The notes under the pieces: model-generated
Seen by the model: the letters and a program-made list of their open reading frames with translations, nothing else
What the model was told of the DNA's origin: nothing
Databases searched by the model: none
Shown here: positions 41,236 to 45,576 of the stretch, piece after piece
Layout of the letters: the number at the start of each line of letters is the position of its first letter
Numbering within the stretch: position 1 is the first letter of the stretch
Assembly: GCA_947503925.1 (NCBI GenBank)
Contig: CANNFQ010000001.1
Location: 434,001-498,000 of the forward strand
Length of the DNA stretch: 64,000 bases
Source of the DNA: an uncultured Paracoccaceae bacterium
Lineage (GTDB): Bacteria > Pseudomonadota > Alphaproteobacteria > Rhodobacterales > Rhodobacteraceae
Direction: 5' to 3'
Translations under genes and position numbers: made by a program

Positions 41236-41271
41236 CGCCCGCCCGGAACCTCCCCCCGGGCGGGCGTTTTT
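41236..41271 (+). terminator. terminator between EF-hand gene and ilvN
   Basis: CGCCCGCCCGG and CCGGGCGGGCG form an 11-pair stem followed by TTTTT. It serves the EF-hand gene (+). The convergent ilvN stop falls within the T run, so the same stem could also stop ilvN transcription. Confidence 0.8.
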
Positions 41272-41836
41272 ATGTGTCAGAGCCGCGAGACAGAGCCGCC
41301 ACGCCGGTCCGCGCGATTTCTTCAAGTCCAAGTGGCTGCATCAGTTCTGCGAAAGCGTCGATCTTTTCGGATGTGCCGGTGATTTCAAACACAAACGATT
41401 CCAAGGTGCTATCGACCACATTTGCCCTGAAAATATCGGCAAGACGGATGGCCTCGATCCTATGATCGCCAGTGCCAACGACCTTGAACAGGGCCAGTTC
41501 GCGCTCTACCGACGGCCCTTCGACGGTCAGATCATTGACATTATGGACATCGACGATCCGACCCAGCTGCGCCTTGATCTGGTTGATGATCTGCGGTGTG
41601 CCGGTGGTCACAATGGTGATACGCGACCGGTGGCCCAGATGATCAACCTCTGCCACGGTCAGGCTGTCGATATTGTAGCCCCGACCCGAGAAAAGTCCAA
41701 TGACGCGGGCCAGGACGCCGGGTTCGTTTTCGACCAGAACGGCCAGCGTGTGCTGTTCTTCCTTATCGGAAAACGTGGGCCGGAGTTCGTAGGCCGAATG
41801 GCTGGTGGCGCCTTTTTTGATTTTAAGCGGTGACAT
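41270..41836 (-). CDS. ilvN: acetohydroxyacid synthase small subunit
   Basis: Regulatory subunit (188 residues) of the enzyme that starts valine, leucine and isoleucine synthesis; its ACT domain binds valine. HTLAVLVENEPGVLARVIGL and FSGRGYNIDSLTVAEV mark the ACT domain, followed by the ALS_ss C-terminal domain. The start at 41836 follows the family N-terminus. It lies 13 bases after a membrane glycosyltransferase-like gene rather than next to ilvI, which is unusual. IlvH is an equivalent name. Confidence 0.95.
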   Translation of the reverse strand: MSPLKIKKGATSHSAYELRPTFSDKEEQHTLAVLVENEPGVLARVIGLFSGRGYNIDSLTVAEVDHLGHRSRITIVTTGTPQIINQIKAQLGRIVDVHNVNDLTVEGPSVERELALFKVVGTGDHRIEAIRLADIFRANVVDSTLESFVFEITGTSEKIDAFAELMQPLGLEEIARTGVAALSRGSDT

Positions 41837-41849
41837 GGTCGGCGTCCTT

Positions 41850-43046
41850 TCAGGTTTCTTGTTTCGGTGTTCCGCGGGCAGCCTGCGCAAGACATAGACC
41901 AAGGGTCAGAAGCAGCACAGGGGGGATGAAGAAAACGGGGGGCAGAAGTGTACCATTGCCGATTGTTGCGGCGTACCAGACGGAAAGTCCGGGTCCGCAC
42001 CAGGCGAGAAATACAGCGATGCCGAACATTGGTCCAATCGCACATTTTCTGGCCTTCAGCAGAAACATCGCGGCGATCCCGAGGAATGCGGCATCATAGT
42101 ACCAAAGATAGGGAGTTGCGACGGGGATGGCCGCAAACAGAACGCCTGCAGCGATATCGGAGTGAACCGTATATTTACGCCAGACAACAAACACCATCGC
42201 TGCCAGCAGCAAGGCAAGGCCAAGATTTGCGACAACGGCAGTTTGCGGCGCAATCCCGAGACGCACCAGAGCAGCGGAAATACTTGTCATCTTATCGAGG
42301 TTGCCCAGTTCATTCATGTTGCCGATTGCGTGATATGCAGAGACATCCCGCCAAGTAGACCAGTACTCCGCCCCATAGTGTAGAATTGCGCCTGCGTGGA
42401 TCGTTACGGTTGTCAGGGCTGCGGCGATGATGGTCCGGAATGCCCAAATTGCAACCAATGCCGCGGGGATCAGCAAACCAAGTGTCGGCTTGATCGTCAG
42501 GCAACCGATCAATACGCCCGCGAGTATTGGTCGATCTGCTCGCATGGCTGCGATTGCGCCAAGTAGGCCGGCAATCCACAGCAAGCTAAATTGCCCAGCC
42601 ATAAGCGCGGGCAGCATTGCGGGGGCAAGCAGGGTCGCGACGAAGGTGCCGTTGCGGTGCCGGGTGAAGTTACGCAGCGCTACCGCAAGTGCGGTGAGTG
42701 AGAGGACGTTGAACAGCCCCCATGCCGGGAGAAATGGCAACATAGCAAACGGCGCGAGAAGGAGCATGGCGGGTGCAGGATGTACCCAAGGCAACCATTT
42801 CGTCGAACAGGTGCCGTAGGCCGCGCGCAGCGCATCCTGATCAAAGGCGAGCAATGGCGTGCCCTGAACCCCGAAACCTCCGGCGGCCCAGAAGACATGG
42901 AAATCAATAACTTTTTCCGTACAATCGCCGGTTCCTGGGCGATCAATACCGTTGGTCGCGAATGCTGCCAAAAGTAAAAGGCCAGCCACCACATTCAGCC
43001 AGGCCAATTGTCGGCCGAGGCGGCGGCCGTCGCCTACTTTAATCAT
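41850..43046 (-). CDS. GT87/DUF2029-type membrane glycosyltransferase
   Basis: Polytopic membrane protein of 398 residues with about ten helices and the DUF2029 (GT87) pattern. This includes an early acidic loop, IDFHVFWAAGGFGVQGTPLL, followed by the WVHPAPAMLLLAPFAMLP region. Related proteins use polyprenyl-phosphate sugars to build cell-surface glycans. AGGAGG lies just before the ATG at 43046. It sits between ilvI and ilvN and may be co-transcribed with ilvN; no functional link to amino-acid synthesis is apparent. Confidence 0.8.
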   Translation of the reverse strand: MIKVGDGRRLGRQLAWLNVVAGLLLLAAFATNGIDRPGTGDCTEKVIDFHVFWAAGGFGVQGTPLLAFDQDALRAAYGTCSTKWLPWVHPAPAMLLLAPFAMLPFLPAWGLFNVLSLTALAVALRNFTRHRNGTFVATLLAPAMLPALMAGQFSLLWIAGLLGAIAAMRADRPILAGVLIGCLTIKPTLGLLIPAALVAIWAFRTIIAAALTTVTIHAGAILHYGAEYWSTWRDVSAYHAIGNMNELGNLDKMTSISAALVRLGIAPQTAVVANLGLALLLAAMVFVVWRKYTVHSDIAAGVLFAAIPVATPYLWYYDAAFLGIAAMFLLKARKCAIGPMFGIAVFLAWCGPGLSVWYAATIGNGTLLPPVFFIPPVLLLTLGLCLAQAARGTPKQET

Positions 43047-43180
43047 TGCGCCTCCTGACTTTGCGTCGGGGCGCAATTTCCCCTGCAACACCGAGCAGGA
43101 TGGTGGTGCAAGGTATGGCCGGACCAATATTCAGTGCGCGGGATAGCATGACATTTCCATAAGTCTGAGGTCAGATTTGT

Positions 43181-43222: not shown

Positions 43223-43627
43223 TTATCCATCTTCTAGCTGTATTTTGCTTACGGTTTCATCAGATGTCAGGATGCTCATGATTTGATCTCTGAGTTGGCT
43301 GACGCCTGGTTCAGCATGATGCTTCCTGAACCAATTTCGGACGTAAGGTTTTTTCGGAATGAACTGCACGAGGTGATCTTCGCCCTCGTTGCTGTGGCAC
43401 CCGAACCCCAGTCGGTAGGAGGCATCATGTTGGATTTCATGATACCACCCCCAGTCCTCTGCGCAGCGAAAGGTCACCTTGACGCCGATCTTGTCCAGTT
43501 CGGCGGTAAGGTAGTCGCTTAGCTGTCTCCCGAAGATACCCGGATTAATGTAGTCGTCACTTTCTTCATCGCGTTCCGCCGGTGTTGGGTGGAACTTCGA
43601 TGACGAGAAGGTAATGATCTTATCCAT
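43223..43627 (-). CDS. hypothetical soluble protein within ilv region
   Basis: Protein of 134 residues, not recognised. It is soluble and aromatic-rich, with a central W-G-W-Y-H-E motif (CAEDWGWYHEIQHDASYRLG) and a C-terminal helix. It starts 3 bases after the ilvI stop, with only a weak ribosome site, so translation may depend on ilvI. Its presence between ilvI and ilvN is unexplained. Confidence 0.65.
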   Translation of the reverse strand: MDKIITFSSSKFHPTPAERDEESDDYINPGIFGRQLSDYLTAELDKIGVKVTFRCAEDWGWYHEIQHDASYRLGFGCHSNEGEDHLVQFIPKKPYVRNWFRKHHAEPGVSQLRDQIMSILTSDETVSKIQLEDG

Positions 43628-43630
43628 GAC

Positions 43631-45385
43631 CTAGACCATCACCGCCCCGTCGGATTTGATCGCATTGGCCACGTCCGCATTTTCCCCCAGCAGCATCTCA
43701 TTATGCGGCTTGCCCGACGGGATCATGGGGAAGCAGTTTTCGTGCTTTTCCACCAGACAGTCGAACAGGACCGGGCCATCGTGATTGATCATTTCCATGA
43801 TCGCATCGTCCAGATCATCAGGGTTGTCGCAGATGATACCCTTGGCCCCGAACGCCTCGGCCAGTTTGACGAAATCAGGCAGGGATTCTGACCAGCTGGA
43901 GGAATAGCGTTCCCCATGCAGCAATTCCTGCCATTGCCGCACCATGCCCAGCCGTTCGTTGTTCAGGATGAATTGTTTCACGGGCAGGCGGTATTGCATG
44001 GCGGTGCCCAGTTCCTGCATATTCATCAGCCATGAGGCTTCGCCCGCGACGTTGATCACAAGCGCGTCGGGATGACCCATTTGCACACCGATCGAGGCGG
44101 GGAAGCCATAGCCCATGGTACCCAAGCCCCCGGAGGTCATCCAGCGGTTGGGATCCTCGAACCCCAGATATTGCGCGGCCCACATCTGGTGTTGCCCAAC
44201 CTCGGTACAGATATAGCGGTCGTGCTTTTTGGTCAGTTCCTCAAGCCGCGACAGTGCGTATTGCGGTTTGATGACTTTGCCTTCCTGTTTGAAGGACAGG
44301 CAGTCGATTTTCTTCCATTCATTGATCTGGTGCCACCATTTGGTGACATTCTCCTTGTCCGTCTTGCGGCCACGGGATTTCCAGACGTTCAACAGGTCTT
44401 CCAACACATGGGCGCAGTCACCAAGGATTGGGATGTCGACCTTGATCACCTTGTTGATGGAGGATGCGTCGATATCGATATGCGCTTTGGTCGAGCCCGG
44501 GCTGAACGCATCCAGCCGCCCGGTGATCCGGTCGTCGAACCGCGCACCGATATTGATCATCAGGTCGCAGTCATGCATGGCCATATTGGCCTCGTACAGC
44601 CCATGCATGCCCAGCATGCCGATCCAGTTGTCACCAGATGCCGGATAGCTGCCCAGCCCCATCAGAGTGGAAGTGATCGGGAAGCCGGTGGCAGCCACCA
44701 GTTCACGCAGCAGCTGGCTGGCGGCGGGGCCAGAGTTGATCACGCCGCCGCCGGTGTAGAAGACGGGCCGTTTCGCTGTTTCCATGGCCTTGGCCAGTTC
44801 GGTGATCATCTCCATATCGCCTTTGACCTGTGGGGCGTAATGGGTTTCGACCTGCCGTGCCTCGGTATATTTGCCGGTGGCGAATTGCACATCCTTGGGG
44901 ATGTCGATGACAACAGGGCCGGGGCGGCCGGATGTGGCGATATGGAACGCCTCATGCATCACGGAGGCCAGTTTATCCGTCTCTTTCACCAGCCAGTTAT
45001 GTTTGGTGCAGGGTCGGGTGATTCCGACGGTATCGGCCTCTTGAAACGCATCTGATCCGATCATGAAGGTCGGGACCTGCCCGGTCAGCACGATGATCGG
45101 GATGCTGTCCATCAGCGCATCGGTCAGACCGGTCACCGCGTTCGTGGCGCCGGGTCCAGATGTGACCAGTGCAACGCCGGGTTTGCCGGTGGCCCGCGCG
45201 TATCCTTCGGCGGCGTGAACGGCGCCTTGTTCATGGCGCACCAAAACATGCTGGATGTGGTTTTGCTGAAAAATCTCGTCATAGATCGGTAGGACGGCGC
45301 CACCGGGGTAACCAAATACGACGTCCACGCCCTGATCTATCAGAGCTTGTACGACCATTTTTGCGCCCGTCATGGCTTTTGTCAT
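43631..45385 (-). CDS. ilvI: acetohydroxyacid synthase large subunit
   Basis: Catalytic thiamine- and FAD-dependent subunit, 584 residues, condensing pyruvate to acetolactate or acetohydroxybutyrate. It has the thiamine-activating Glu in LVRHEQGAVHAAEGYAR, the GRPGPVVIDIPKDVQ segment, and the TPP motif in GMVRQWQELLHGERYSSSW. The preceding leader holds an attenuation peptide (45478-45525) and terminator, so it is probably controlled by supply of charged branched-chain tRNAs. IlvB and IlvI are equivalent names here. Confidence 0.96.
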   Translation of the reverse strand: MTKAMTGAKMVVQALIDQGVDVVFGYPGGAVLPIYDEIFQQNHIQHVLVRHEQGAVHAAEGYARATGKPGVALVTSGPGATNAVTGLTDALMDSIPIIVLTGQVPTFMIGSDAFQEADTVGITRPCTKHNWLVKETDKLASVMHEAFHIATSGRPGPVVIDIPKDVQFATGKYTEARQVETHYAPQVKGDMEMITELAKAMETAKRPVFYTGGGVINSGPAASQLLRELVAATGFPITSTLMGLGSYPASGDNWIGMLGMHGLYEANMAMHDCDLMINIGARFDDRITGRLDAFSPGSTKAHIDIDASSINKVIKVDIPILGDCAHVLEDLLNVWKSRGRKTDKENVTKWWHQINEWKKIDCLSFKQEGKVIKPQYALSRLEELTKKHDRYICTEVGQHQMWAAQYLGFEDPNRWMTSGGLGTMGYGFPASIGVQMGHPDALVINVAGEASWLMNMQELGTAMQYRLPVKQFILNNERLGMVRQWQELLHGERYSSSWSESLPDFVKLAEAFGAKGIICDNPDDLDDAIMEMINHDGPVLFDCLVEKHENCFPMIPSGKPHNEMLLGENADVANAIKSDGAVMV

Positions 45386-45424: not shown

Positions 45425-45451
45425 CAAAAAAACCCCCGAGGATGTCGGGGG
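45425..45451 (-). terminator. ilvI attenuator terminator
   Basis: On the minus strand CCCCCGA and TCGGGGG pair around a 5-base loop and are followed by a run of eight T. It lies between the leader peptide and the ilvI start, so it must be bypassed for ilvI expression. CCCATGCGC (minus strand, 45459-45451) abuts its 5' arm and is complementary to GCGCATGGG within the leader peptide gene. Confidence 0.8.
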
Positions 45452-45477
45452 CGCATGGGATCGTTATGGTTTTACCG

Positions 45478-45525
45478 TTACCGGCCCATGCGCTGTTTTC
45501 CTACGATTAGTACGACGTTATTCAT
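45478..45525 (-). CDS. ilv operon leader peptide
   Basis: Fifteen-codon frame encoding MNNVVLIVGKQRMGR, with five consecutive branched-chain codons (Val-Val-Leu-Ile-Val). AAGGAAC stands six bases before the ATG. It is 17-odd bases from the predicted start of transcription and is followed by a terminator hairpin. This is the arrangement of a classic attenuation leader: ribosome stalling at the V-V-L-I-V codons would favour the antiterminator. Confidence 0.8.
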   Translation of the reverse strand: MNNVVLIVGKQRMGR

Positions 45526-45548
45526 CGGTGTTCCTTTGCGTAGCGCGA

Positions 45549-45576
45549 ACTTAATCTGCGTCTGCAGGGGGGTCAA
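45549..45576 (-). promoter_or_regulatory. predicted ilvI promoter
   Basis: On the minus strand TTGACC (45576-45571) and TTAAGT (45554-45549) with a 16-base spacer. The leader peptide begins about 24 bases downstream of the -10 element. Confidence 0.6.

Follow-up and report, generated by a model that had tools for sequence, protein, structure and literature searches.

Attenuators for alphaproteobacterial ilvIH were reportedly predicted by Vitreschak et al. in 2004. In Caulobacter, an ilv leader with branched-chain codons precedes the acetolactate synthase operon and acts by transcription attenuation, as described in the covered parts of the source (PMC4117421). Within Rhodobacterales itself, the covered parts of a survey identify uORFC-8-2 as the cysS attenuator (PMC8632094), and in Sinorhizobium meliloti the trp leader peptide, peTrpL, is described as working in trans (PMC7298713; PMC10117765, parts covered). 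Since ilv attenuation by branched-chain leaders is already known in alphaproteobacteria, the element before ilvI considered here belongs to a known kind. The literature searched gave no account of an ilvI attenuator in Rhodobacterales. Such an element is not described in the parts covered of PMC4117421, PMC8632094 and PMC10117765; those of PMC3738593, PMC2873474 and PMC2965389 make no mention of ilvI or ilv, and the part covered of PMC4833913 has no match for ilv. The supplement of the PMC8632094 survey may include an ilvI motif.

The window, that is the whole stretch of 64,000 nucleotides analysed, carries the element before ilvI on the minus strand at 45426-45576, where it can be read directly from the sequence. 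The order is TTGACC, 17 nt, TAAGTT, AGGA, a 15-codon frame with TAA, a spacer, CCCATGCGC, a GC stem-loop and seven T; these parts and ilvI all lie on that strand. Sequence and comparison with relatives place the -35 box TTGACC at 45571..45576. The initial annotation gave the promoter as TTGACC-N16-TTAAGT, a string that is literally there, but a 17-nt spacer followed by the -10 box TAAGTT (45548..45553) reads better because the -10 of the relatives compared (TAATGT, TATTGT, TAGGGT) sits one base later. As raw counts without a shuffled control, 95/95 relatives have TTGAC or TTGAT no more than 110 nt before the start of the leader, and 92 of them additionally satisfy a loose -10 criterion. Transcription would start near 45541. 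The ribosome site reported upstream of the small frame is confirmed as AGGA (45532..45535), 6 nt before the ATG. ilvI (43631..45385) starts 40 nt after the last T of the T run and encodes the large subunit of acetolactate synthase (584 aa; TPP enzyme N, M and C domains), whose relatives include a 66% identical protein annotated as acetolactate synthase in an S. meliloti record (L307). In the window, ilvI and ilvH are separated. Between ilvI and a frame at 41270-41902, presumably IlvH-like from its motifs, lie frames of 134 aa (43223-43627) and 425 aa (41850-43127), the latter a membrane protein by its look. In the S. meliloti record, by contrast, ilvI and ilvH are only 22 nt apart.

The leader peptide gene, MNNVVLIVGKQRMGR (45478..45525, stop TAA included), was delimited from the sequence and a comparison of 95 leaders. 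Its codons 4-8 are GTC GTA CTA ATC GTA (45502..45516), for Val Val Leu Ile Val. The 15-residue frame with five adjacent branched-chain codons is thus present as first reported and is kept in relatives, and it has the form seen in attenuators: a short, translated-looking frame with clustered codons for amino acids of the regulated pathway. Exactly 15 codons are found in 85 of the 95 aligned leaders; of these 85, between 79 and 84 have a V, L or I at any given position from 4 to 8. Residues 2-3 vary widely while the V/L/I class of positions 4-8 is retained. All 20 same-genus leaders read have a 15-aa frame ending RMGR together with the V/L/I codons, so the loss of either in close relatives, named by the initial annotation as evidence against its claim, was not seen among them. 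The control codons also tend to be rare. Of the 262 Val codons in the leaders, 124 (47%) are GTA, compared with 4.2% in the ilvI genes that these leaders precede, and 52 of the 126 leader Leu codons (41%) are CTA, compared with 1.7%. The leaders therefore prefer codons that are rare in the downstream gene; the Fisher values for this excess ignore the relatedness of the leaders. At the other end of the frame, the codons of the RMGR tail are nearly invariant (CGC in 85 of 95 leaders, ATG in 90, GGC in 75 plus GGT in 11, CGG in 87), as expected if the RNA is conserved besides the peptide.

These comparisons began with 110 loci, comprising the window's own, 80 named and 29 more of the family. A leader rule succeeded at 101. 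The nine exceptions were L015, truncated where its contig stops, L066 and L073, which were included manually, and L075, L077, L079, L081, L083 and L088, where no leader was seen. After removal of L072 (spurious), L074, L080, L085 and L086 (other architecture) and L098, L107 and L110 (identical copies), 95 distinct leaders remained as alignment A1, from which the covariance model R1 was built. Searched against the window's whole genome, R1 has a single match at E <= 1, at the ilvI leader (E 1e-20). Across the order, R1 finds the element at E <= 1e-4 in 352 of 390 genomes, representing 133 of 139 genera. Of 56 same-genus genomes 51 are matched, and the five misses are also without a match to the IlvI start (E <= 1e-40). 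Among 20 misses listed of the 38, 12 belong to one genus. The single genome read from that genus has no leader and a Paracoccus-like ilvI start, and Paracoccus ilvI genes (L072, L075, L077) show none on visual inspection. Seven missed genomes were inspected in this way, and the one without a leader is the genome just mentioned. In the other six, spread over five genera, there is a V/L/I-rich frame together with a terminator whose sequence differs; at L292 no ATG, GTG or TTG start is in view. The same plan carried by different sequences in genera missed by R1 suggests fast turnover of the element. Leaders of this sort, with other sequences on the same plan of V/L/I codons, helix and terminator, stand before ilvI at L288, L289, L291, L293 and L294. 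Outside the family, a crude leader scan (sensitivity 92/95; mononucleotide-shuffle null 0.4%) passed 5 of 80 ilvI upstream regions, most of the five doubtful; the regions were drawn, with strands known, from 210 out-of-family genomes with a match. Class-wide R1 matches at L129-L133 (E 0.004-0.009) look unrelated by eye and were left unused.

What could connect this leader to termination? The perfect 9-bp complement reported inside the leader gene is real. Strand A, GCGCATGGG (45485..45493), whose first base is the third of codon 11, is the exact complement of strand B, CCCATGCGC (45451..45459). The alignment places a hairpin, h1 (CCG-GTAA-CGG, 45475..45484), between them, with the stop codon inside its GNRA-type loop. 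The terminator stem-loop, including foot pairs common to B, covers 45432..45452 and, as in an attenuator, it is an intrinsic terminator standing between leader and structural gene. Its stem, CCCCCGA/TCGGGGG, has the 7 bp first described, plus one G.U pair beneath, and the T run that had been counted as eight is of seven (45426..45432). Strand B was said to abut the 5' arm; there is contact, but it goes further, with the last C of B (45451) inside the 7-bp stem and its G (45452) able to pair below that stem with the first T of the T run. The final 2 nt of B are thus common to the terminator foot. These assignments rest on sequence and alignment together, apart from the T run, read from the sequence.

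The region folds with z = -4.2 and none of 200 shuffles folds equally well; in the minimum free energy structure of the window's own element, A:B and a 6-bp terminator coexist and h1 is absent. The covariation check proposed for the 9-bp pairing was made on A1. Across the 95 leaders, A:B plus h1 is paired in 96.5% of 1140 cells, with both-side changes in 8 of 12 pairs, among them all 3 pairs of h1. Compensatory cells number 15 against 1.2 in shuffles, and slid versions of the pairing reach 17-51% paired. In Sulfitobacter (L014) both strands of A:B are altered, and in Nereida (L028) CCG/CGG is replaced by GATC/GATC. The V/L/I codons and the pairing are therefore both conserved in the alignment that had been suggested. 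The two foot pairs of the terminator are kept in 94/95 and 95/95 leaders, and both foot positions can pair either way in 94/95. Overlap between A:B and the terminator is 2 nt in 51 leaders, 3 nt in 41 and 4 nt in 3; L041, from Palleronia salina, has an A:B that captures 5 nt of the arm. RNAalifold, given the 95 sequences, chose two h1 pairs and the terminator with its foot and left out A:B, which is consistent with competition yet counts against a dominant A:B. A second complement of strand A, ATGCGC, follows the T run in L012, L020, L042, L091 and others, and L014 has ATGTG there, matching its altered A strand. As a second partner of A, ATGCGC was rejected: it reaches at least 5 nt in 33 of the 92 sequences with A found, is absent in the window and lies past the terminator.

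The persistence of V/L/I codons, frame length and pairing across relatives strongly supports reading the element as an attenuator of ilvI that responds to branched-chain amino acids. Judged from sequence comparison, ribosome-mediated transcription attenuation of ilvI by charged tRNA-Val/Leu/Ile has a probability of roughly 0.83, and the switch most likely permits reading of ilvI only when Val, Leu and Ile run short. With the cognate tRNAs plentiful, the ribosome would reach the stop codon and cover strand A and h1, B would be free, the terminator would form with its full foot and transcription would end after about 115 nt. In shortage, the ribosome would stall at the rare GTA/CTA-type control codons. 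From the size of the ribosome footprint, a ribosome with the last control codon in its A site would have its leading edge about at the first base of A, so the edge of the stalled ribosome would lie at or before that base. A:B could then form and take the terminator foot beside the T run, and with the foot lost RNA polymerase would continue into ilvI.

The initial annotation called A:B the expected antiterminator, and this is borne out in part. A:B competes for the 2-4 foot nt that it has in common with the terminator, but most of the terminator can form alongside it. No helix of at least 5 bp taking at least 4 nt of the terminator arm is found in the window, and, as noted, RNAalifold drops A:B. 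Foot-pair probabilities were obtained from partition functions in which a masked 5' part is a crude stand-in for the ribosome. Over the 95 leaders they average 0.96/0.98 when A is masked, fall to 0.75/0.84 once A is free and reach 0.41/0.44 if the ribosome is left out altogether; the corresponding values of the window element are 0.9/1.0, 0.15/0.51 and 0/0.01. The change has the right direction for antitermination on stalling because A:B removes the foot beside the T run. The mean equilibrium effect on the foot is modest, so the last step is one that we infer: A:B probably works by taking the foot pairs. As the inner terminator pairs average 0.97 with A masked, still 0.96 with A free and 0.73 with no ribosome, any blockage through loss of the foot must be kinetic or steric.

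A rhizobial RNA family bears on this step. At the gathering threshold, a Rfam scan of the whole window gave no match. In permissive E-value mode, RF02502 (Atu_C8) gives a full-length covariance model match of 32.3 bits (E 6e-5); the element falls short of the family's gathering score of 50, while the order of its elements and its core strands agree with the family. Weak matches to AgvB (E 0.09) and ffh (E 0.4) were disregarded. The rhizobial and related ilvI leaders L080, L085 and L086 score 36-38 bits, also below 50. In the S. meliloti record L307, RF02502 scores 121.1 bits (1979-2099) immediately upstream of acetolactate synthase, and in a Shinella record (L309) 113.8 bits (1479-1599) upstream of an ilvI homologue. 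Seven plasmid-record loci (L302-L304, L308, L310-L312; six Rhizobium and one Phyllobacterium) score 94.8-112.7 bits, and there the match precedes a homologue 43-46% identical to a Bcr/CflA-type transporter. One further genome led to a survey of its order, where six genomes out of 36 exceed the RF02502 cut-off, each of them before the transporter. Leader frames could be read in eight of the nine RF02502 loci and are V-rich (MKNFAVILVVGRRMGRMV, MVLVVVIGRMGRMV and similar); in L303 the script rule gave no frame and a second look none ending in h1, and the RNA match stands. These nine loci and L176 have in common GCGCATGGG...CCCATGCGC enclosing a hairpin, with the terminator following after a further 6-8 nt. 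Nine of the ten have a leader frame, and in all nine the stop codon lies in the hairpin loop. The rhizobial relatives invoked by the initial annotation thus prove apt in a stronger sense, the rhizobial RNA being Rfam RF02502. That Atu_C8 may be a branched-chain attenuator is a reading of the present analysis.

R1 also finds like leaders before a Bcr/CflA-type transporter, in 3 of 56 same-genus genomes and, among 289 class-wide genomes, in six outside the window's family. Such leaders also stand on plasmids of Roseobacter denitrificans (pTB1), Phaeobacter piscinae and Leisingera caerulea. A family test of one transporter, that of L157, was passed for NCBIfam TIGR00710 (Bcr/CflA family efflux). 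At E <= 1e-110 the transporter occurs in 44 of 292 genomes of the order. Among 30 transporter loci fetched, a loose rule found a leader in eight of the eight closest and in 5 of 22 others, two of these five being spurious. Overall that rule gave a transporter leader at 26 of 43 loci; L282 and L287 were judged spurious and omitted from the codon count, in which Val accounts for 72 of 90 branched-chain codons of 22 distinct leaders. At L155 and L156 the transporter was placed by tblastn, the longest frame there not being the transporter, and in the L156 genome the transporter match crosses one TGA. The homologue in the window's genome (43% identity) has no such leader in the stretch examined. 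Val-rich leaders stand before a Bcr/CflA-type MFS transporter or homologue at L152-L160, L163-L165, L176, L258-L265, L268 and L274 and at L302-L304, L308 and L310-L312, L303 being counted by its RNA match. At the transporter homologues L166 and L305, in Agrobacterium and Mesorhizobium plasmids, TPP riboswitches of about 75 bits (1324-1440 and 824-940, respectively) replace the attenuator.

How would termination be prevented where A:B and the terminator do not overlap? They lie 2 to 8 nt apart in L080, L085, L086, L176, L291, L293 and the ten Atu_C8 loci, so overlap is not a general rule and foot-sharing cannot fully explain the wider family. The same switch might have another last step, with A:B parking the stalled ribosome at the terminator base or beside RNA polymerase, so that the terminator would be unable to fold or ribosome and polymerase would re-couple. 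This fits the ability of A:B and terminator to coexist, the core GCGCATGGG/CCCATGCGC that recurs letter for letter in the ten Atu_C8 loci at 6 to 8 nt from the terminator, the gaps of 2 to 6 nt in L080, L085, L086, L291 and L293, and the last control codon, which ends 8 nt before A, about where the edge of a stalled ribosome falls. It is nevertheless rather unlikely: in the Rhodobacterales alignment the overlap is nearly fixed, a feature that parking does not require. A tentative and doubtful synthesis would make Atu_C8 and the Rhodobacterales ilvI leaders one old family of branched-chain attenuators, without a classic antiterminator and co-opted by the Bcr/CflA-type transporter. Its fixed core would be the A:B helix closed over a hairpin holding the leader's stop codon, and A:B would let a stalled ribosome block termination at the hairpin foot, through foot-sharing in Rhodobacterales and, in the rest of the family, through the placement of the ribosome.

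Classic trp and ilv leaders possess a 1:2 protector or pause stem, and A:B could be its counterpart, another pairing being the antiterminator. A candidate for that other pairing, a helix of at least 5 bp taking at least 4 nt of the terminator arm, exists in 11 of the 21 other leaders examined for it, but several of these helices (L041, L074, L157, L294) are A:B itself; the remaining 10, like the window, have none. The control codons moreover precede A, which a ribosome stalled on them would not cover, and a protector role is on this evidence quite improbable. More improbable still is that the leader, once terminated, serves chiefly as a small RNA acting in trans or as the source of an acting peptide. 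RF02502 is classed as an sRNA and peTrpL acts in trans in S. meliloti (PMC7298713; PMC10117765, parts covered), but in the loci read the element stays with ilvI or with one type of transporter, and peptide residues 2-3 vary widely while the V/L/I class of residues 4-8 persists. Attenuation of ilvI with A:B acting on the terminator foot is thus preferred.

On that reading, about 90% of the genomes sampled from one order have retained the same switch, and an RNA family classed as rhizobial sRNA gains a testable function as a branched-chain attenuator. The variable spacing between A:B and terminator offers a way to test how termination can be avoided by a leader that has no classic antiterminator. 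The transporter leaders predict an efflux-type transporter under valine or translation-stall control; were the single-family synthesis true, this transporter, partly plasmid-borne, would respond to valine starvation or stalled translation.

As far as the literature searched extends, the order-wide Rhodobacterales element with its foot-sharing pairing and stop-codon hairpin is new, and so is a second target, the transporter. By description, the Caulobacter ilv leader has the same plan of branched-chain leader and attenuation (PMC4117421, parts covered). uORFC-8-2 comes from the same order and is likewise a ribosome-mediated attenuator with tandem control codons and a terminator, but its codons are for cysteine and its gene is cysS (PMC8632094, parts covered). 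Atu_C8 has the same core, GCGCAUGGG...CCCAUGCGC, as the window element, and its loci above threshold also have a V-rich leader frame, a terminator and a stop codon held in the hairpin within A:B; its copies in Sinorhizobium and Shinella likewise precede ilvI. It differs in a longer h1 and in the gap of 6-8 nt between B and the terminator in the ten loci, where the 95 Rhodobacterales leaders have an overlap of 2-4 nt.
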